64,000 nt of DNA from Verrucomicrobiia bacterium (GTDB lineage: Bacteria; Verrucomicrobiota; Verrucomicrobiia; Verrucomicrobiales; DEV007): the NCBI GenBank assembly GCA_030427505.1, contig JAUICH010000002.1, forward strand, positions 62,001 through 126,000. The letters run 5' to 3'. The notes beneath the pieces were generated by a model, which ran no database searches, was not told the DNA's origin, and worked only from the letters and a program-made list of their open reading frames with translations. Shown piece after piece: positions 43,841 through 54,764 of this stretch (its first letter is position 1; each line of letters opens with the position of its first letter). Position numbers and translations under genes: made by a program.

Positions 43841-46348
43841 TCAGCTGTTCGTCTCGGCGGGTTCCGTCTGCTCGGTGCCGCTCTTGCGGTCGTTGGTCCG
43901 GAAGGTCAGCTCCTTGGCTTCGTCTTCGTGGAGCACTTCCACCACGTCGCCCTCGCGAACGTCTCCGCGGAGGAGTTGCTCGGCGAGCGGGTCCTCGAGG
44001 TATTTTTCCACGGCGCGGCGCATCGGCCGGGCACCGTAGTTTGGATCGTAACCCTTCTCGATGAGGAAGTCCTTGGCGGAATCCGTCAGTTCGAGGGTGA
44101 TATCCTTGTTCTTGAGGCGTTTCATCACCACGGCGATTTCCAGGTCCACGATGCGCACCAAGTCCGGTTTTTCCAGCATGTGGAAAACGATCTTCTCGTC
44201 CAGACGATTGAGGAATTCCGGCTTGAAGGCGGTTTTGGCGCGTTCCAGGATCTTCTCGCGCATGCCTTCGTAGTCGTGCTTCTCGTCCGCCATGGCGCCG
44301 AAGCCGAGCGAACTCTGCTTTTTGATCAACTCAGCCCCCACGTTGGAGGTCAGGATGATGATGGTGTTGCGGAAGTCGATCTTCCGGCCCAGAGAATCGG
44401 TAATGGTGCCTTCTTCCAGGATCTGGAGTAGCAGGTGCATCACGTCCGGGTGAGCTTTTTCGACTTCGTCGAAGAGCACCACGGAATACGGACGGCGGCG
44501 CACTGCTTCGGAAAGCTGACCGCCTTCTTCATAACCGACGTAGCCAGGAGGCGAACCGATCAGGCGGCTGGAGGTGAATTTCTCCATGTATTCCGACATG
44601 TCGATCTGGATGAGGGCATCCGCGTCGCCAAACATGAACTCCGCCAGGTTACGGGCCAGGAAGGTTTTACCCACCCCGGTCGGGCCGAGGAAGATGAAGG
44701 AACCGATCGGGCGGCGCGGGTCTTTCAAGTCCGCGCGAGAGCGGCGCAGGGCCTTGGAGATGGCGATGACCGCCTCGTCCTGGCCGATGACCCGCTCTTT
44801 GAGCTCGTCTTCCATCTTGAGAAGCTTCTGAGCTTCCTTCTCCTCCATGCGCTGGAGCGGAACGCCGGTCCACTTGGAGACCACCGCCATGATATCGTCT
44901 TGATCGACGGTGACGATTTTCTCCTCGTTGTTGGCGCGCCATTCTTCGAGCAGATTTTCCAAGTTCTGGCGGGTCTGCTTTTCCTTGTCGCGTAGGGAAG
45001 CGGCACGCTCGAAGTCCTGATCTTTAATCGCGGCTTCTTTCTCCGCCACGATCGTTTCGATGTCGGCTTCGATGTCCTTGACCTCTGGCGGGCGGGTCAG
45101 CGCGGAAATACGGGCGCGAGCCCCGGCTTCGTCGAGAATGTCGATGGCTTTGTCCGGAAGGAAACGGCCCGTCAGGTAGCGCTCGGAAAGCTTCACGCAG
45201 TTTTCGATCGCTTCTTCGGTGTATTTCGCCTTGTGGTGCACCTCGTACTTATTCCGCAGACCCTGCAGAATGAGGATGGCGTCTTCCACGCTGGGTTCGT
45301 CCACCTTCACGGTTTGGAAGCGGCGTTCCAGAGCGGCGTCTTTCTCGATGTATTTCCGGTATTCATTCAGCGTGGTGGCGCCGATGCACTGCAACTCACC
45401 GCGGCTCAGGGCCGGTTTGATGATGTTGGAGGCGTCCATGGCGCCTTCCGCCGAACCGGCTCCCACGATGGTGTGAAGCTCGTCGATGAAAAGGATGATG
45501 TTCTTGGCGCGGCGGATCTCGTCCATCACGGCCTTGATGCGCTCTTCAAACTGACCGCGGTATTTCGTGCCCGCGACCATCAGGGCGAGGTCCAGCGTGA
45601 TGACGCGCTTTTCGCGCAGCAGCTCGGGCACGTTGCCCGCCGCGATCTCCTGGGCCAGGCCTTCCACGATGGCGGTCTTGCCCACGCCCGCTTCCCCGAT
45701 CAGCACCGGGTTGTTCTTGGTGCGGCGGCACAGGATCTGGATGACCCGCTCGATTTCTCCCTGGCGTCCGATGACGGGGTCCAGATCGCTCTGTTGGGCC
45801 AGTTCCGTCAGGTCGCGGCCAAAGGCGCGCAGGGCCGGCGTTTTGGAATCTTTCTTCGTGCCGGCGGGGATGCCTTCGTCGAAATCGGCGTCCTCGATGT
45901 CTTCGGGACTGAAGTTCGGGTCGAGTTCTTTGAGGATCTCGTTGCGGGTGCGCTCGATGTCCACGTTCAGGTTCTTGAGCACCCGGGCGGCGACGCCTTC
46001 ACCCTCGCGCAGCAGGCCCAGCAGGATGTGTTCCGTGCCCACGTAGGAGTGGTTCAGCGCCTTGGCTTCTTTGCCCGCCAGAGCGAGCACTTTTTTCACC
46101 CGGGGCGTGTAGGGAATGTTCCCGACCATCTTGGTTTCGGGACCATTGCCAACCTGCTTTTCGACCTCCATGCGGACGGTCTCCAAGTCCAGGCTCATCT
46201 TTTGTAAGACGTTGACCGCCACCCCCTGGCCTAACTTGATGAGGCCCAGCAAAAGATGCTCCGTTCCCACGTAATTGTGGTTGAAACGGTCCGCTTCTTT
46301 TCGCGCCAGGGCGAGAACTTGCTGAGCTCGGGGGGTAAAATTATTCAT
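43841..46348 (-). CDS. clpC: ATP-dependent Clp protease ATPase subunit ClpC
   Basis: AAA+ unfoldase that feeds ClpP, 835 residues. Starts at ATG 46348 ([20 protein letters not shown]). Two ClpN repeats ([11 protein letters not shown] and [11 protein letters not shown]), AAA1 with Walker [16 protein letters not shown] and Walker B ILFIDELH, a UVR linker motif ([20 protein letters not shown]), AAA2 with [15 protein letters not shown] and [11 protein letters not shown], and the C-terminal ClpB-D2-small domain. The UVR region and the gene order mcsA-mcsB-clpC identify ClpC rather than ClpA or ClpB. Its start overlaps mcsB by 8 nt. Confidence 0.97.
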
Positions 46349-47444
46349 GATCTCGATCCTCGGAGAGTATATCACTGAAGTCGGGACGAGTCAGGCTTTT
46401 TAGCTTGTGCCTCAGGATTTCAGCACGCAGCACGTCCCGTTCTTCAACTGTTAATTTTCGCTTGGCTTCCACTTGTAAATGAGCTGGCTGAACCTCCGTC
46501 AGCAGCACATTGATGAGTTCCCGGTCCTCGTTCGGAAAGACCCCCAGGTCAATTCCCAGCCGCGTCATGGAGAGCAGGTTCAGTGCCTCCTTAGACGGAA
46601 TGATATGCGCGTTCCTTAAAATGGCATGGGCCCGGCACACCTGATCCTGAAGCATGGTGGGCTTTTCCTCGAGAAGCTTGTAGCGGGCGTTCTCTTCATT
46701 CTCGATAATCTGGAGGATCACCTTTTCGAGGTGATCGATGATTTCGGTCTCCGACTTGCCCAGGGTGGTCTGGTTGGAGACCTGGAAAAGATTGGCCAGG
46801 GCTTCCGTGCCCTCTCCATAGAGACCGCGCACGGCCAGGCCGATCTTGTTGGCGGCCTGGATGGTCTGGTTGATTTGCTCGCTGAGCACCAGGCCCGGCA
46901 AGTGCAGCATGGCGGAGGCCCGAAGGCCGGTACCCAGGTTCGTGGGACAGGCCGTCAGATAGCCGTAGGTGGTGTCAAAAGCGTAGGGCAGCTCGGATTC
47001 CAGCTCGGTGTCGATCTTGTCCAGGTTCTCGAAGGCGGACTGCAGTTGCAGGCCGGGACGGATCGCCTGCATGCGCAGGTGATCTTCCTCATTGATCATG
47101 ATGCTCACGGTCTGCTTCCGGTTCATGACCGTGGCGCAGCCGGGGCCTTTCGCCGCGTGTTCGCGGCTGATGAGGTGGCGCTCCACCAGGACTTGCTTCT
47201 CGATGGCGGAAAGGCCGGTCATCTCCTCGGAGAAAGCTTCTTTCATCTCGCTCAGTTCGTTGACCTGAGGCTGAACCTTTTCGAGCAATTTGATGCGGCT
47301 GTCCTTTTTCGCCCAGCCGGGGAAGGGAAAATCCTCCAGGTTGCGCGCCAGCCGGACGCGGCTGGTCATCACAATATCGTTGTGGGGCCCGGCGGTGCGC
47401 ATCCACTCCGCCGGTTTCCGCAGTAATGTCGAAAACCTCATCAT
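46341..47444 (-). CDS. mcsB: Protein arginine kinase McsB
   Basis: Phosphorylates arginine residues of proteins, marking them for ClpCP. The 367-residue phosphagen-kinase-like protein has HNDIVMTSRVRLARNLEDFP, the active-site region with INEEDHLRMQ, and the nucleotide-binding NLGTGLRASAMLHLP followed by GLAVRGLYGEGTEA. All key arginines and the acidic catalytic glutamate region look intact. It follows mcsA by 45 bp and overlaps clpC by 8 nt. No ctsR gene precedes the set, unlike in Bacillus. Confidence 0.96.
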   Translation of the reverse strand: MMRFSTLLRKPAEWMRTAGPHNDIVMTSRVRLARNLEDFPFPGWAKKDSRIKLLEKVQPQVNELSEMKEAFSEEMTGLSAIEKQVLVERHLISREHAAKGPGCATVMNRKQTVSIMINEEDHLRMQAIRPGLQLQSAFENLDKIDTELESELPYAFDTTYGYLTACPTNLGTGLRASAMLHLPGLVLSEQINQTIQAANKIGLAVRGLYGEGTEALANLFQVSNQTTLGKSETEIIDHLEKVILQIIENEENARYKLLEEKPTMLQDQVCRAHAILRNAHIIPSKEALNLLSMTRLGIDLGVFPNEDRELINVLLTEVQPAHLQVEAKRKLTVEERDVLRAEILRHKLKSLTRPDFSDILSEDRDHE

Positions 47445-47489
47445 GATCTCTCTGCCTCTCTTTTCCGGATTACGGCGCTCGAGGGGGAT

Positions 47490-48014
47490 CTAGTCCGAGG
47501 AGGAGGACAGGTTTTTCTTAGAGCTGTACTCGTCCTTTAACTCAGAAATAGCGTCGCGGAGACGGGCGGCTTCTTCATAATTTTCCGCGTCCACGGAATC
47601 CTGAAGGTGGGTCTGGAGGTCCGCCAGCCGGTCGCGGTACTCTTTGTTCGCCCGGTAGCGCATCGGAACCTTGCCTTTGTGCACCGTGGAACGGTGCATG
47701 GCTTCCAGCAGGTTATCGAGACCCTCGCTCAGCACTTCGTAGCATTGGCTGCAGCCCAGCCTTCCCGTTTTCTTAAATTCCGTTTCCGTGAATCCGCAGT
47801 TATGACATTTCAATTCACCTTTAACAGTGGGCTTGGGAGAGACGGTCTCCGTGCCCACACCTTTCAATAGATCGGCCAAGGCGAAACCGGTCGGATCGGT
47901 AACACCCTTTTCTTTGGCGCAGGATTCGCAGAGATTCACTTTCTGCATCTTCCCATCCACGATTTGGGTCAGGAAGATAGAAGCGCTGTCTTTCTGGCAG
48001 ACATCACAATTCAT
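47490..48014 (-). CDS. mcsA: McsA, zinc-binding activator of McsB
   Basis: Activator of the arginine kinase, 174 residues. Two pairs of CXXC at the N-terminus (CDVCQKDS and CESCAKEKG) and two more after a linker (CHNCGF and CSQCYEVL) bind zinc. A C-terminal UVR domain (LADLQTHLQDSVDAENYEEA) is the interaction module. Same strand as mcsB and clpC, 25 bp after ilvE. Confidence 0.94.
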   Translation of the reverse strand: MNCDVCQKDSASIFLTQIVDGKMQKVNLCESCAKEKGVTDPTGFALADLLKGVGTETVSPKPTVKGELKCHNCGFTETEFKKTGRLGCSQCYEVLSEGLDNLLEAMHRSTVHKGKVPMRYRANKEYRDRLADLQTHLQDSVDAENYEEAARLRDAISELKDEYSSKKNLSSSSD

Positions 48015-48939: not shown

Positions 48940-49003
48940 GGAACGGGTGGGAGATCCGAAAAAAACGGACGTAGTTTCGCCCGCGACGCGGGGAAAAGCA
49001 ATC

Positions 49004-49690
49004 TTAGGCCACGAGCCTGCCGTCGAAAAGCTCCAGCTTGCGGTCGCCAGACTCGGCGAGGCTGGGATCGTGAGTGACGACCATGAGGGTTTTGTGCTGT
49101 TCGTCCACCAGGTTCATGAGCAGGTCCATGACCGAGGCGCCGGTCTTGGAATCCAGGTTTCCGGTGGGTTCGTCGGCGAATATGATATCCGGATCGTTGA
49201 TCAGCGCCCGGGCAATGGCCACCCGCTGTTGTTCTCCGCCCGAAAGCTCGGTGGGAAGGTGAGTGGCGCGGTCCCGCAGGCCTACCTTTTCCAGGAGCTC
49301 TTCGGCGCGGTTACCGGTGTTTTTACCGCGCATCATCGCGGGCAGCATGACGTTCTCCGCCGCGGTGAGTTCCGGCAGGAGAAAGTAGTTCTGAAATACA
49401 TAGCCCATCTGGCTGGACCGGCACCGCGCCAGAGCGTGCCGGGGGAGATCGTAGATGGAATTTTCCTCCACAAAGACTTTTCCTTCGTTAGGCGCTTCCA
49501 AACCCGCCAGGGTATAGAGGAGCGAAGTCTTGCCCGCGCCTGAAGCCCCGCTCAGAAACAGCTTTTCCCCACGCTTCACGCTTAGGGTCACGCCGCGCAG
49601 GACTTCAATCCGGTTCTGGCCGATCTTGAAGGTCCGGACGACATTGTCCGCGCGAATGATGGGGATATCGGTGGCTGCGTCTCCGGTCAT
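49004..49690 (-). CDS. ABC transporter ATPase, LolD/MacB-like
   Basis: A 228-residue ATP-binding cassette. ATG 49690 is preferred; a GTG at 49717 would add nine residues. Walker A is LSGASGAGKTSLLYTLAGLE, Q loop FQNYFLLPELTAAENVMLP, signature LSGGEQQRVAIARALINDP, Walker B IIFADEPTGNLDSKTG, the exact pattern of LolD/MacB ATPases that energise lipoprotein or peptide extrusion. Its permease is not in the window; it lies on the same strand upstream of ilvE. Confidence 0.9.
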   Translation of the reverse strand: MTGDAATDIPIIRADNVVRTFKIGQNRIEVLRGVTLSVKRGEKLFLSGASGAGKTSLLYTLAGLEAPNEGKVFVEENSIYDLPRHALARCRSSQMGYVFQNYFLLPELTAAENVMLPAMMRGKNTGNRAEELLEKVGLRDRATHLPTELSGGEQQRVAIARALINDPDIIFADEPTGNLDSKTGASVMDLLMNLVDEQHKTLMVVTHDPSLAESGDRKLELFDGRLVA

Positions 49691-49762
49691 GTTCGAGGCC
49701 GGAAACCGATACGCCACTTCGCAAAAAGAAGCGACTGCTTTCTGACCCGCCGCGGGGTACCT

Positions 49763-50254
49763 CTACTTCTTCTTCCGCGTGGTTTTCCGGGCCGCCTTGG
49801 TTTTTGGAGTGGCGCTTTTCTTCTGACCGCGCAGAGCCTTGCGCCGGGCTTTTATGGCCCGTCCCAAGGCATCATCGCTTCCATATCGGCTGATGGAAAA
49901 CTTCGCCGTGCGGCGCTTGCCTTCGCCATCTACCCAAGCTGCCTGCCAGTACTCGTAGGTCTTATTGTCGCCGGAACGGGACACCACGTGGGTTACCCCG
50001 GTAACGCCGCTTTTAAGCACGTTTCGCCGCTTCCGCGATGCCTGCTCCTGTTTGTACTTCGGCAGCTTCGCGAGCAGCTTGTCCCGGTAGGCTCTGGCCG
50101 CGGACAAAGACTTGGACTTTCCGCCTAACGACTTGTCGGGAAAGTACTTCTGATTGGTTTGGCCGCGGTGCGTGATCCTAACATAGTAGCCGTGATTTTT
50201 CTTCTCCGGCTGATCGATTCGCGTAATACCGTAGGTCGCTCTCGGTTGACTCAT
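49763..50254 (-). CDS. Double AP2-domain DNA-binding protein with lysine-rich tail
   Basis: A 163-residue basic protein. Residues ~8-60 (YGITRIDQPEKKNHGYYVRI, then YFPDKSLGGKSKSLSAARAY) and ~80-140 (GVTGVTHVVSRSGDNKTYEY, then FSISRYGSDDALGRAIKARR) both fit the bacterial AP2 fold: three strands then a helix with alternating Ala/aromatic residues. The last ~25 residues are almost all Lys, Arg, Thr and Ala, like a histone tail. AP2 domains bind DNA in plant regulators and in homing endonucleases; here there is no nuclease. A nucleoid-associated or regulatory role is inferred. Confidence 0.75.
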   Translation of the reverse strand: MSQPRATYGITRIDQPEKKNHGYYVRITHRGQTNQKYFPDKSLGGKSKSLSAARAYRDKLLAKLPKYKQEQASRKRRNVLKSGVTGVTHVVSRSGDNKTYEYWQAAWVDGEGKRRTAKFSISRYGSDDALGRAIKARRKALRGQKKSATPKTKAARKTTRKKK

Positions 50255-50362
50255 GACGCTCCTTTGGGCTCTTCCCTATCCTACCCATCAGGACTGGGGG
50301 TGAGCCGTTCCTATCGAAATTGCCAACCTTTGGCAAGAGCATTCCTGCTGATCGGTTCGTTG

Positions 50363-50818
50363 CTAACCCTTGAAATTGAGCTGCCGCAGCGCTTCGTAGA
50401 GCCCAATTCCCACGGCAGTGGCCAAGTTCAGGCTGCGTGCCTGGCGCATGGGAATCCTCAAACATTGCTCGCGATGAAGCTCCAGCAGGCTCTCTGGAAG
50501 CCCCTTGGTTTCGCGGCCGAAAACCAGGTAGTCTTCGTCCTGAAAACGTTCGTCCCAGTAGGGCTTGTTGGCCTTCGTGGTAAAAAAGAAGAACCGGGCT
50601 TTCGCGTCCGCGGCCGCCGTCAGCTTGTCCAGGGAAGGCCACTCTAGCACTTCCACTTCCTGCCAGTAGTCCAGGCCGGCTCGCTTCAGCGTCTTATCAT
50701 CCAGGGAAAATCCGAGAGGATGCACCAGGTGAAGGCGTGTGCCGGTGGCCAGGCACAGGCGGCCGATGTTTCCCGTGTTGGGCGGGATTTCGGGTTCCAC
50801 CAGGACGATGTTCAACAT
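50363..50818 (-). CDS. trmL: tRNA (cytidine(34)-2'-O)-methyltransferase
   Basis: SPOUT methyltransferase that modifies the wobble base of leucine tRNAs. The 151-residue protein has the family motifs NTGNIGRLCLATG, VFGRETKGLP and RIPMRQARSLNLATAVGIGL with the C-terminal knot. Length is standard. It lies 24 bp after the rpmA terminator on the same strand. Confidence 0.96.
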   Translation of the reverse strand: MLNIVLVEPEIPPNTGNIGRLCLATGTRLHLVHPLGFSLDDKTLKRAGLDYWQEVEVLEWPSLDKLTAAADAKARFFFFTTKANKPYWDERFQDEDYLVFGRETKGLPESLLELHREQCLRIPMRQARSLNLATAVGIGLYEALRQLNFKG

Positions 50819-50842
50819 GGAGGTCTAACAGAAAAACGAAAA

Positions 50843-50871
50843 AACCGGAGACCGTCAGGACGGCTCCGGTT
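50843..50871 (-). terminator. Intrinsic terminator of the rplU-rpmA operon
   Basis: Stem AACCGGAG/CTCCGGTT (50843-50850/50864-50871) extended by an inner stem, followed on the minus strand by T6, CG and T5 (complement of 50831-50844). Strong hairpin plus T tract directly after rpmA. Confidence 0.9.
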
Positions 50872-50902
50872 TCGGAAAAAGAATGCTGAAGCTTTCAGCG
50901 AA

Positions 50903-51154
50903 TCAGGCTTCCACCGGATCCACATTCACGCGGCGTCCGCCACGGTCGAAACGCACCGTTCCGTCCACCAGCGAGTAAATCGTGTAATCGCGGCCCAGGC
51001 CGACGTTCTTGCCGGGGTGCCACTTGGTGCCGCACTGGCGCAGGATGATGTTGCCCGCCACCACGGCTTCACCGCCGAAGCATTTCACGCCCCGGCGCTT
51101 GGACTTGCTGTCGCGTCCGTTCTTAACACTTCCCTGACCTTTCTTGTGAGCCAT
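50903..51154 (-). CDS. rpmA: 50S ribosomal protein L27
   Basis: Large-subunit protein near the peptidyl-transferase centre. 83 residues beginning [20 protein letters not shown], the conserved N-terminus that reaches the active site; there is no cleavable leader. [10 protein letters not shown] near the end is typical. Second gene of the rplU-rpmA operon, followed by a clear terminator. Confidence 0.98.
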
Positions 51155-51225
51155 GGTTCAGTCCTCCTTTGTCTGAGAAATTGCGGTTCCCTTGAAAATT
51201 GTTCGATCTAACAAGAGTCCCACGC

Positions 51226-51540
51226 TCAGGCGGTGATGCTCTTGATGGCCAGTTTCGTCAACTGACGGCGATGACCTTTGCGGCGATGGTACCCCTTCCG
51301 GCGTTTGTATTTGAAGGCGATGACCTTCTTGTCGCGGAACTGGTCCACCACTTCCGCCACCACTTTGGCGCCATCCACAAAGGGGCTGCCCACCGTGGTG
51401 GTGTCTCCGTCACTCAAAAACAGTACGTCAGAAAACGTGGTCTCGTCGCCGACACTTGCGTCGAGACGTTCGACTGCAATTTTGTCGCCTTCTGAAACCC
51501 GGTACTGCTTACCGCCAGTTTTGAAAATCGCGTAGGCCAT
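51226..51540 (-). CDS. rplU: 50S ribosomal protein L21
   Basis: Large-subunit protein, 104 residues: MAYAIFKTGGKQYRVSEGDK at the start and KVIAFKYKRRKGYHRRKGHR near the end are hallmark L21 segments. First gene of rplU-rpmA; the usual obgE is not next to them. Confidence 0.98.
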   Translation of the reverse strand: MAYAIFKTGGKQYRVSEGDKIAVERLDASVGDETTFSDVLFLSDGDTTTVGSPFVDGAKVVAEVVDQFRDKKVIAFKYKRRKGYHRRKGHRRQLTKLAIKSITA

Positions 51541-51644
51541 AGATACCTCTTCCTTTTCCCCGGAAATGGGGAGCGGAACCTGTCACACCTCCCCGAGGCG
51601 ATCAAGCGAATTATTGTGCGAGATCCGGCTGGAAAGGAGAAATT

Positions 51645-54600
51645 TTATACTTTTTCCAGAAAGAGAAACCCTTCCGCGTCGAAAAGAGCGGTTCTTCCGG
51701 TATCCGTCCAGGAAGTTTTCCCTTCGGCTTGCGGCAGGCAGGCGCCCCGCAAGGATAGCTTCCCGGTTTCGGTGAGCGACTTCTGGCCGCCGTCGATCCG
51801 GGCGGAAATACCGGGCAGCAACCGTCCCACGGAACCCTCTTTCCGGCCGGTTTGCGGTTCGTGATCGGGGACCAGGGCATTGGGATCGGGAATGCTGAGG
51901 GAAATCACGATTCCCAGATCGTCCGGGGCCCAGCCGCGGCCGATGGAAACACCGGTTTGCTGTTCCAGTTTTTCCAGGGCTTCGGCGTCCGCGTTTTCGT
52001 CGAAGCAAAACGCCCAGCGGAAGGGCGCGGGCAGATCCAGCGGTTCGCCGTGGGCTTCCAGGGCCTTCTGGGAGGTCTTCGTCAGGATCCAGAGGGAAGC
52101 GTCTTCTTCCGTCAGCACGTCCCAGGGGTCGCCTGAATGGGCCGAAAGAGACCGGCTGACAGCCACGCCTTTTCTGAGAACCGGGTACCAGAGGGAGAAA
52201 CAGGCGCCCTCTGCGGTGTTCAGAGGGGCTTCAGTCAGAATGGTCTCTCCCTGCCACACGAAGTGGGCTCCAGAAGCCTGGTACACGTTCGCCAGCACTT
52301 GGCGATGACTGAGTTCCACCAAAGGGCCGCTTTCACCGGACAGAATGGCAAAAGCGGGCGCGTCCGGGTTTCGTTCCGGCAGGGCCAGCCGGCGGCGTTT
52401 GAAAAAGGTGGGCTCCAGGTAGTTCAGAATCCGCTCCAGCAGGACCCGGGGGCTTCCGGCCGCGTTCATTTCCTCCCGGAAATCCAGGAGCGAAAATCCT
52501 TCCGCCAGCCCGGTCAACTGGGGCGCCAGGGCGCGGGAAGTCACGATGGACCCGATGCCGTATTCCTTGAGCGTGTCCGCCAGGCGGTATGCCGGGGAAG
52601 TATTTTCCGTGGGGAAGACCGGCAGATTGACCGGGCGTTTTCCGGCGAGGACCAGGGCCAGGTTGACGAAGGCGGCGGGAATGCCCTGGGGCAGCAGGAC
52701 GCCGACCCGGTCTCCGGCCCCGTTGAGGGTGTGTTTCCACCGGGCGCTCAGGGCGATGGAGGCCGCCAGCAGCGAACCGCGCTTCAGGACATGGCGGCGG
52801 TTTTTCCCGTGCTCCACCAGGCAGGGCTTCCAGGGTTGGTGCGAAAGCGTGCCCAGGATTTCCCGGTCCAGCGTGCGCTTCAAGACCGGGCGGGCCGCGA
52901 ACGCCTCCTCCGAAAGGTCCAGGATAAGGGTGCGGGCCCGGGCGGCATCGATCTCCCGGGCGGCGACGGGCTCCCCGAAATTCACAATGGCGGAGAAGGG
53001 GAAGTGCCGCGGCCTTTTGTAGATGTATTTCTCGCGTTCGTAGGAAAAGATGGAGTCCCAGAGCGAGTCCATGTAGATGGGCAGTACCGTGGCGTCCGCC
53101 TTACGGGCGATGAGTTCGAAGCCTTTGCGCAATTCGTTGACCACGCCCGTGCGGGTGAGTTGCCCCTCCGGAAAGATGCAGACGACGTCTCCGTCTTTGA
53201 CTGCCTCGGCGGTCAGCTTGATGGCTTCCTTGGCCTTGCCCGGTGTGATGGGGATGGCGCCAAACAAGCGGAGGAACCAGGCCATCCACCTCACACTCAT
53301 GAAGTGGTTCAGAATGACGAAACGCACCGGCCGGGGACAGGCCGCCGAAATGATGAAGGCATCCACATAGGTGACGTGGTTGCTGATCATCAGAACGCCG
53401 CCCTTTTCCGGCACGCGGTCGATGTTCAGCGTTTTGATCCGGTAAATCGAGCGGACCAGGATCAGGAAGAGAAAACGGAAGGAGTTCCGAGGCAGCAGAG
53501 CCAAAGAGCCGAGGGCGACCGCGGCCGTGGGAATGGTCAGGAACAAGACGGATTGATTGGCGGTGAATCCGGCGTGATCCAGCAAAAAGCCCAGACCGAT
53601 GGCGATGATGGCCACCACGTTCACGATCAAGTTCGTGGCCGAAAGGACCCGGCCGCGGTGGGCTTCCTCGGACGCGTCCTGGAGGAAGCTGGAGAGGGGA
53701 ATGAGGTAAAAGCTCCCGAAGACTCCGATGGACAGAAGGCTGCCGTAGAAAAGGTGAGAACCGGGGGGTGTCAGCGCCACGCCCAGCAGGCTGCCCAGCA
53801 GTCCCACGCTGCCGATGGGAATCATGCCCAACTCGATGCGGTTGCTGCTCAGCACGGACACCAGCACGCTGCCGACAATCATCCCGAGGCCGATCATCAG
53901 GGTCAGGCGGGCGGAAGCGCCGATGGCGCCGCCCTCGTCCAAGTCGGGGAAGAGTTCCTTGCCGAAGCTGATCAGGGTCAGCCCGATGAACGAGGCCGCG
54001 AACCAGTAGTAGCCGATCCCCAAGGCCGTGAGGCGCAGCTCTTTCAATTTCAGCAAATAGAGAAGATCCAGGATGTGGGCATAAAAGACCTTTGGGGTGA
54101 AAGAGACCTTCTTATGCGAGGGCGTGGTCTGGATGGCGAAAGAAAGCGCCAGCGGCACCAGGGCCGCCAGTCCGATGTAAAAGACTGGGACGAAAGCCGC
54201 GCGCCAGCCGTTGTTGGATTCATTGAGCAGCGCGTCATACCAGGTGCCGCCCAGGAACATGCCCACCAGGATGGCGAGCATGGTGGAGGTCTGCATGATG
54301 CCGTTGACCATGGTGAGCCGTTTTGACCCCGCCAGTTCCTTCAGGATGCCCGTCTTGGCTGGGCTAAAAAGCGTCGATTGAATGCTGAGCAGGAGAAAGC
54401 CGGCCACGGCCACCTCCACATTCTTGTTCATGATGAAAAAGGCCAGCCAGGCAAAGATGAAGAGCTGAAAGATGCAGCACCACAGGATGACGTTCCGTTT
54501 GGAAAAACGGTCCGAGAGGAAGCCGGAAATGGGCGCCAGCACGATGAATGGCAGGGGCAACAGCGCGGACATCAGGTACTGGATGTTCTGCCCGATGGGC

Positions 54601-54764
54601 CGGTCGTGCGCCACGGCCAGGGCCATGCCGATGAGGACGAATTTGACCAGGTTGTCGTTGAAGGCGTTCTGCGCCTGAACGACCAAGACCCCCCAGAGCG
54701 AGACCCAGTTCCGCTGGCTGATCTTTCCGTTCTGGGGTGGGGACGCGGTTTCAGGGGCGGACAT
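51645..54764 (-). CDS. LplT/Aas-like fusion: MFS flippase, acyltransferase and degenerate acyl-AMP ligase
   Basis: A 1039-residue three-part protein for lysophospholipid uptake and re-acylation at the inner membrane. Residues ~20-430 form a 12-helix MFS transporter (LSDRFSKRNVILWCCIFQLF). Residues ~440-620 are a PlsC acyltransferase with NHVTYVDAFIIS (HX4D) and FPEGQLTRTG. Residues ~690-1039 resemble the AMP-binding domain of Aas, but the phosphate-binding loop T-S-G-T-T-G is replaced by AILSGESGPLVELSHRQ and the late Y/D-G motif is eroded, so ligase activity is doubtful. Acyl groups may come from acyl-ACP made elsewhere. Confidence 0.87.
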   Translation of the reverse strand: MSAPETASPPQNGKISQRNWVSLWGVLVVQAQNAFNDNLVKFVLIGMALAVAHDRPIGQNIQYLMSALLPLPFIVLAPISGFLSDRFSKRNVILWCCIFQLFIFAWLAFFIMNKNVEVAVAGFLLLSIQSTLFSPAKTGILKELAGSKRLTMVNGIMQTSTMLAILVGMFLGGTWYDALLNESNNGWRAAFVPVFYIGLAALVPLALSFAIQTTPSHKKVSFTPKVFYAHILDLLYLLKLKELRLTALGIGYYWFAASFIGLTLISFGKELFPDLDEGGAIGASARLTLMIGLGMIVGSVLVSVLSSNRIELGMIPIGSVGLLGSLLGVALTPPGSHLFYGSLLSIGVFGSFYLIPLSSFLQDASEEAHRGRVLSATNLIVNVVAIIAIGLGFLLDHAGFTANQSVLFLTIPTAAVALGSLALLPRNSFRFLFLILVRSIYRIKTLNIDRVPEKGGVLMISNHVTYVDAFIISAACPRPVRFVILNHFMSVRWMAWFLRLFGAIPITPGKAKEAIKLTAEAVKDGDVVCIFPEGQLTRTGVVNELRKGFELIARKADATVLPIYMDSLWDSIFSYEREKYIYKRPRHFPFSAIVNFGEPVAAREIDAARARTLILDLSEEAFAARPVLKRTLDREILGTLSHQPWKPCLVEHGKNRRHVLKRGSLLAASIALSARWKHTLNGAGDRVGVLLPQGIPAAFVNLALVLAGKRPVNLPVFPTENTSPAYRLADTLKEYGIGSIVTSRALAPQLTGLAEGFSLLDFREEMNAAGSPRVLLERILNYLEPTFFKRRRLALPERNPDAPAFAILSGESGPLVELSHRQVLANVYQASGAHFVWQGETILTEAPLNTAEGACFSLWYPVLRKGVAVSRSLSAHSGDPWDVLTEEDASLWILTKTSQKALEAHGEPLDLPAPFRWAFCFDENADAEALEKLEQQTGVSIGRGWAPDDLGIVISLSIPDPNALVPDHEPQTGRKEGSVGRLLPGISARIDGGQKSLTETGKLSLRGACLPQAEGKTSWTDTGRTALFDAEGFLFLEKV

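Follow-up and report, generated by a model that had tools for sequence, protein, structure and literature searches.

A conserved twin-AP2 basic protein of Verrucomicrobiales as a candidate nucleoid-associated protein or global regulator

AP2 domains are familiar from the transcription factors of plants and Apicomplexa and from phage nucleases, of which they form a part. The gene at 49763..50254 on the (-) strand of the DNA analyzed here (the whole stretch of 64,000 nucleotides is referred to as the window) encodes a protein of 163 residues, with start and end as in a preliminary description of this DNA. That description saw two AP2-like repeats and a Lys/Arg-rich C-terminus in a stand-alone protein without a nuclease or integrase part, and suggested either a nucleoid or packaging factor or a regulator of adjacent genes. 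What, then, does a protein of this kind do in a bacterium? We give a roughly even chance to the reading that it is a chromosomal DNA-binder, i.e., a nucleoid-associated (AP2-headed, H1-like) protein or a wide-ranging global regulator of Verrucomicrobiales. The argument builds on its family, predicted fold, conservation, synteny, tails, and codon usage, all of which were computed.

A ribosome-binding-site-like AAAGGAG lies 5′ of the ATG (50259..50265, (-) strand); no sigma-70-like promoter was found in 49600-50500 and no Rfam family across 49000-51700. The encoded protein has a pI of 10.9, with 44 Lys/Arg vs 11 Asp/Glu. AlphaFold (mean pLDDT 77.9) predicts strand-strand-strand-helix in each half with a basic helix between them, and the features, all on the (-) strand, are arranged as follows. 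The N-terminal AP2 domain (residues 7-64; 50063..50236) is modeled with strands 10-14, 22-29, and 32-39 and helix 46-62. The predicted basic linker helix (residues 66-82; 50009..50059), with six Lys/Arg and one Asp/Glu in residues 67-82, connects it to the C-terminal AP2 domain (residues 83-143; 49826..50008), for which strands 84-94, 98-108, and 114-120 and helix 126-147 are predicted. The short Lys/Arg/Thr/Ala tail (residues 144-163; 49766..49825) bears out the Lys/Arg-rich C-terminus, as its 20 residues include 10 Lys/Arg and no Asp/Glu; beyond residue 147 it has no predicted structure, and its confidence is low (mean pLDDT 58, 46, and 47 over the final three blocks). The AP2 arrangement, i.e., a three-stranded sheet followed by a helix, is predicted for each domain in the whole-protein model and also when the N-terminal domain is modeled separately (mean pLDDT 73.9). 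With its size, its pI, and a predicted twin-AP2 fold, the protein displays the trait "small, basic, with a DNA-binding fold" of nucleoid-associated proteins.

At the sequence level, Pfam AP2 (PF00847) matches the C-terminal half at residues 101-140 with an E-value of 1.1e-4 and 22.8 bits in the whole protein, or 25.6 bits with the half alone, which falls short of the Pfam gathering score of 33.3 bits. AP2 is matched in 39 of 40 aligned close orthologs at E-values up to 1, and three of the eight family members scanned full length exceed the Pfam cut-off: the paralog on contig C9 of the same genome (37.9 bits), the protein of locus L104 (36.9 bits), and a Desulfocapsa plasmid protein (41.3 bits). 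In this respect the family is like Pfam AP2 and the bacterial "AP2 domain-containing proteins". The preliminary description, which was to be abandoned if AP2 was found in neither half, survives this comparison.

The N-terminal half of the protein has no Pfam AP2 match. Among the N-terminal halves of ten relatives, L119 is matched with an E-value of 1.8e-4, L118 with 0.07, and the other eight are not matched. When the two halves were compared as profiles built from 100 diverse double-domain relatives (omitting single-domain rows and the multi-domain rows L102 and L189), hhalign returned a probability of 94.3 and an E-value of 9.7e-8, and 90.3 and 1.5e-6 in the reverse direction; with the 40 close orthologs alone there was no significant match. 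Likewise, a C-half HMM scored up to 20.1 bits on N-halves vs 4.6 for shuffled sequences, and an N-half HMM up to 15.6 bits on C-halves vs 9.0. A sequence search of the PDB with the 40-ortholog profile was discarded: designed alphaRep repeats came first, apparently owing to helix composition, and 6sy0 reached an E-value of 0.075.

The predicted structures lead to a known tandem. Foldseek places the DNA-bound tandem AP2 of Plasmodium SIP2 (6sy0) first for the full-length model (E 1.5e-3, probability 0.99), at 17% identity and a global TM of 0.27-0.32. In VIA-align, SIP2 comes eighth with the full-length model (Z 4.0), behind mitoribosomal and hibernation-factor chains; the ribosome hibernation factors (Z up to 4.5) were set aside, as they may reflect a common beta-alpha arrangement. 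With the N-terminal domain alone, the SIP2 AP2 chain 6sy0_A is first in VIA-align (Z 7.4, rmsd 2.7, 60 residues), followed by four Toxoplasma mitoribosome chains (Z 6.3 to 4.9), and unrelated folds begin at Z 4.6. Foldseek E-values for this domain are weak (best 0.31), and an arm-binding domain, that of the HPI integrase (3jtz, Z 3.7), is among the weaker matches. The N/C profile match, the likeness of the AlphaFold fold to SIP2, and the Pfam match of the L119 N-half together settle for us that the N-terminal half is an AP2 domain despite the missing Pfam match, so that both repeats of the preliminary description hold, the C-terminal one by a Pfam match under the cut-off and by predicted structure, the N-terminal one by profile match and predicted structure. 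SIP2 thus shares two AP2 domains in tandem with the window protein, and its structure, according to the entry title, holds two SPE2 half-sites. Unlike the eukaryotic SIP2, the window protein adds a basic linker helix and a basic tail. The best viral structural match of the twin-AP2 model is an uncharacterized protein of 183 residues from Pseudomonas phage PaBG (BFVD S5VVH9; E 1.6e-5).

AP2-HNH homing endonucleases and integrase arm-binding domains use the same DNA-binding fold. Unlike these endonucleases and integrases, the window protein has no Pfam match to a nuclease or recombinase family: the HNH domain of a homing endonuclease is absent, no tyrosine-integrase catalytic domain is matched, and the modeled protein consists of two AP2 domains, linker, and tail only. 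Searches of NCBIfam, PHROGs, and PADLOC gave nothing meaningful for it, and no nuclease or recombinase Pfam family is listed for the 40 aligned orthologs or was found in the two tailed forms scanned. The window protein is therefore rightly called stand-alone. The nuclease-free picture fails for one relative, i.e., L104:1003-1926 (= L189:5482-6408), which combines AP2-like domains with an HNH nuclease domain that also exceeds its cut-off (25.7 bits); among the eight relatives scanned full length, HNH is present in L104 alone. Through this fusion, the family is connected to the AP2-HNH nucleases. In another relative (L102:760-1992), a double AP2 is followed by some 245 residues for which Pfam gives no match at an E-value of 0.1.

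The L104 fusion, together with relatives on 16 plasmid records (Agrobacterium 11, Rhizobium 3, Allorhizobium 1, and Desulfocapsa 1), raises the possibility that the protein descends from an AP2-HNH homing endonuclease or a mobile element and was domesticated with only the DNA-binding part retained. We consider this origin very improbable: the window family stays at one locus and is strongly conserved, and relatives were found neither among 50,697 phage records nor, by a narrow pattern search, on viral contigs. The remnant scenario concerns where the protein came from, and it is compatible with a present role as nucleoid protein or global regulator.

How widespread and how constrained is the protein? 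The preliminary description implied that it was unique, which proved incorrect: it is one member of a large family with two further paralogs in the same genome (contigs C9, 34%, and C15, 33%) and with relatives in the phylum and on plasmids. The gene is matched in 69 of 74 genomes of the window's taxonomic family, the window genome included (40 of 41 good genomes), and a near full-length ortholog with at least 54% identity occurs in 55 genomes of that family (counted from match rows). Beyond the family, an N-domain match in 155 of 288 genomes of the order sample indicates that not every member of the order carries the gene, and the window protein matches 35 of 387 genomes of a phylum sample at an E-value of 1e-4. 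In a named collection, the titles of all 57 loci refer to Verrucomicrobia or to taxa within this group; four name Akkermansia muciniphila. The 40-ortholog alignment has 48 invariant columns, among them the motif RIDQPEKKNHG (residues 12-22; 40 of 40), which varies in L035 and L133, both outside that set. Over 46 loci the median identity to the window protein is 69.2%, in comparison with 66.7% for L21 (39 loci), 86.2% for L27 (40), 61.6% for TrmL (38), and 63.8% for LolD (40); the twin-AP2 protein is thus conserved about as L21 is. Within one bacterial family, it belongs to the conserved core proteins.

The neighborhood of the gene provides the next clue. Upstream are a SpoU/TrmL-type methyltransferase gene (50363..50818, (-) strand; Pfam SpoU_methylase), behind it rpmA (50903-51154), and behind that rplU (51226-51540), the latter two named from their translations; downstream are a LolD-like ABC ATPase gene (49004..49717, (-) strand; Pfam ABC_tran) and, beyond it, a class IV aminotransferase gene and then mcsA-mcsB-clpC. 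Relatives keep all or part of this order, rplU-rpmA-trmL-gene-lolD-aminotransferase-mcsA-mcsB-clpC, and neither flank is always kept (flanks of up to 6 kb were compared, and the contigs of many loci stop before that). In the 46 double-domain loci, L21 is seen in 39, L27 in 40, TrmL in 38, and LolD in 40 (37 at more than 50% identity).

This proximity to rplU, rpmA, and trmL would fit a ribosome- or RNA-associated protein in which the AP2 fold was recruited to bind structured RNA. Codon usage that approaches that of ribosomal proteins (see below) is consistent with such a role, as is the finding that Toxoplasma mitoribosome chains are the nearest solved folds beside SIP2. That mitoribosome is described as containing four proteins with AP2-like domains (PMC11742926, in part), although the chains matched here are chains as ranked and are not paired with its named AP2-like proteins. 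Against an RNA role, the same source, in the part that bears on this, describes the AP2-like folds mainly as scaffolds, with extensions grown from them contacting the rRNA (PMC11742926). Moreover, in ten loci whose protein has a single AP2 domain, L21, L27, and TrmL are in view in none and LolD is kept in nine, and the 16 loci of genus g22 (L154-L169) have none of the window's neighbor genes, L21, L27, and TrmL included, within ~1.5 kb. Collectively, these data make a ribosomal function improbable.

The same g22 loci bear on a third alternative, that the protein is a sequence-specific transcription factor with a limited regulon whose AP2 pair reads a bipartite operator, the basic tail merely adding affinity. 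In plants and Apicomplexa, AP2 domains recognize specific sequences, and two of the 16 plasmid relatives (one Rhizobium, one Desulfocapsa) are annotated as "AP2 domain-containing protein" with the term regulation of transcription. Such a factor might act on its own cluster, e.g., as a CtsR stand-in for mcsA-mcsB-clpC. The CtsR family was not matched in the window genome, a weak negative since the same search gave a match in only one of the 14 genomes used as controls and failed to detect the CtsR that Bacillus subtilis possesses. A local role is hard to reconcile with the variable surroundings: the g22 neighbors differ, the ORFs around the paralogs in the window genome differ from the window's neighbors (compared by eye), and just 11 of the 46 double-domain loci show McsA, McsB, and ClpC, the flanks being limited to 6 kb and some of them cut by contig ends. 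The idea of a regulator of adjacent genes hence finds little support here, apart from one recurrence: an aminotransferase-like ORF that shares 28-32% identity with that of the window accompanies the gene in 10 of the 12 other f3 loci (L170-L181). In the ten loci L170-L179, this class-IV-aminotransferase-like ORF stands near a double-AP2 gene whose subfamily differs from the lolD-linked one. Given the variable surroundings and the C-terminal tails and codon usage discussed below, we regard a transcription factor of limited regulon as unlikely.

The most telling evidence on function comes from the C-termini of relatives and thus from outside the window. An H1-like tail was defined as at least 70% Ala+Lys+Pro over at least the last 30 residues, counted from the C-terminus; since the counted stretch runs into the AP2 domain, the lengths obtained in this way (up to 125) overstate the longest tails, and tail length is therefore quoted as protein length minus ~157 residues. 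Of 112 distinct family members, 24 have an H1-like tail; of 297 neighboring-gene ORFs from the same loci, some of them cut by contig ends, none does. Two forms can be distinguished. In family f82, only the N-terminal AP2 domain is present, and a tail such as KKAAKKAAKKAAKKAAK stands where the second AP2 would be. In 10 of 11 loci, the f82 gene has lolD and the aminotransferase gene beside it, just as the window gene does, which makes it the positional ortholog of the latter, and nine of the 11 loci carry an H1-like tail (these counts take in 11 of the 12 f82 genomes with an N-domain match; G483 is left out). Genus g22 has another subfamily, apart from the lolD locus: 15 of its 16 loci encode both AP2 domains followed by an H1-like tail, and with lengths of 203 to 257 residues these proteins have a variable ~45 to 100 residues behind the second AP2. 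The g22-type head is patchy in its own family (a match in 28 of 59 genomes). The window protein itself, with a tail of ~20 residues, stays below 70% Ala+Lys+Pro, and its tail is not H1-like by this definition.

In a quick tree (113 proteins less one under 85 residues; tails cut off beforehand), the tailed proteins fall in two separate clades, f82 and g22, with four changes, at least three of which are forced by the starred branches; the tree has 145 columns, 45 of 106 inner branches open, and some long branches. By parsimony, the simplest reading of these sequences is that the tail was gained twice. Alternatively, a single old gain may have been followed by losses. Tails in two clades argue against a transcription factor with a limited regulon. 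That relatives, positional orthologs included, end in H1-like tails makes the twin-AP2 protein a good candidate for a chromosome-organizing protein, and to this extent the proposal of a nucleoid or packaging factor gains ground, the role itself staying that of a candidate.

Low-complexity Ala/Lys/Pro tails of variable length are shared with chlamydial Hc1 and Hc2 and with Pseudomonas AlgP. Hc1 and Hc2 are described as H1-like bacterial proteins (PMC2848022, in part), and AlgP as having a folded N-terminal domain and an H1-like tail that binds DNA, the protein placing polyphosphate granules (PMC9239181, in part). An H1-like tail can accordingly serve granule placement and not packing alone. The AP2 head of the relatives differs from the head of AlgP, which is predicted to be helical, and the window protein lacks the long tail. 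Neither the Pfam AP2 model, outside which the window's N-terminal domain lies, nor its description covers the present family in full: H1-like tails in relatives and the status of a lolD-linked core gene are absent from that description. In the titles and abstracts of the open-licence papers listed, no treatment of a stand-alone bacterial twin-AP2 protein or of AP2 with an H1-like tail was found.

If the protein organizes the chromosome, is it abundant? As a proxy we used a codon-usage score on which 0 is the local background and 1 is the level of ribosomal proteins. Over 21 genomes the twin-AP2 family has a median of 0.70 and exceeds 0.5 in 15 (for G474 an upstream start codon was used, and ribosomal proteins number only 7 in G474, 10 in G019, and 16 in G466), in comparison with medians of 0.89 for L21 (12 genomes), 0.98 for L27 (12), 0.14 for TrmL (12), and 0.05 for LolD (15). 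When Lys and Arg codons are left out, the median is 0.52 (11 of 21 above 0.5) vs 0.33 for TrmL and 0.15 for LolD; when Ala codons are left out as well, it is 0.49 (9 of 21) vs 0.24 and 0.16. Codon usage typical of abundant proteins in 15 of 21 genomes is a further point against a limited regulon. Besides the window genome, five genomes are below 0.5 (G003, G019, G466, G316, and G392). Ordinary usage in the window genome (score -0.08, the 33rd percentile of 39 window ORFs) and in two of these five, the f2 genomes G316 and G392, counts in favor of the transcription-factor alternative. To call the protein abundant from the window genome alone thus failed on codon usage, and the 21-genome result is mixed. 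With high scores in many genomes and an ordinary one here, high abundance is likely for many relatives and is not indicated in the window genome. HU was found in all 19 genomes tested, and the two HU genes of the window genome, named by their N-termini, are at codon percentiles 100 and 95. Since HU is present, a further packing protein is not required. The Hc1 family has no match in the window genome.

How might the twin-AP2 protein act as a nucleoid-associated protein or global regulator? We infer DNA binding, its specificity, and a packing role from the features above. Most likely, each AP2 domain would lay its three-stranded sheet onto DNA, and the two domains could jointly occupy two neighboring half-sites, as SIP2 does with its AP2 pair according to the title of its structure. 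The linker and the tail, both basic, would grip the DNA backbone without sequence preference, and the outcome might be DNA that is coated, bridged, or bent. Relatives whose H1-like tail replaces or follows the second AP2 would be proteins of this kind that condense DNA more strongly. Broad binding by bacterial proteins of other types is described in Waddlia, which is chlamydia-related: Wcw_0377 (SWIB), Wcw_1456, and Wcw_1460 are DNA-associated with genome-wide or wide ChIP-seq binding (PMC6426960, in part). These have SWIB/MDM2 domains or conserved domains of unknown function, and AP2 is not mentioned in the relevant portion of that paper (PMC6426960).

A bolder proposal, which we advance tentatively, is that the family constitutes an undescribed class of bacterial chromatin proteins, AP2-headed analogs of linker histones that help to form the condensed nucleoids of Verrucomicrobia. 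In this scenario, the head would dock specifically or semi-specifically, and the condensing tail would have been gained (by parsimony twice, once replacing the second AP2 at the same locus). Condensed nucleoids are described in Verrucomicrobium, Prosthecobacter, and Chthoniobacter (PMC2647929, in part); the link between them and the twin-AP2 protein is ours. The family is a concrete candidate behind these nucleoids, and it would show how the AP2 fold, used for DNA binding, can be turned into a chromatin protein in organisms other than eukaryotes.

Two further features of the surrounding DNA are of interest. The mcsA-mcsB-clpC cluster at 43841-48014 encodes, by Pfam, an McsB-type ATP:guanido phosphotransferase and a UVR-motif protein. 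With CtsR unmatched in the genome (the weak negative given above), protein-arginine phosphorylation perhaps operates here without its usual repressor, and a Lys/Arg-rich putative DNA-binder encoded only a few genes from the cluster would be a natural candidate substrate for this modification. On the other side of rplU, 51645-54764 encodes a fusion of 1039 residues that unites an MFS transporter, an acyltransferase, and an AMP-binding enzyme (Pfam), which we take to be of the lysophospholipid transporter plus Aas type.
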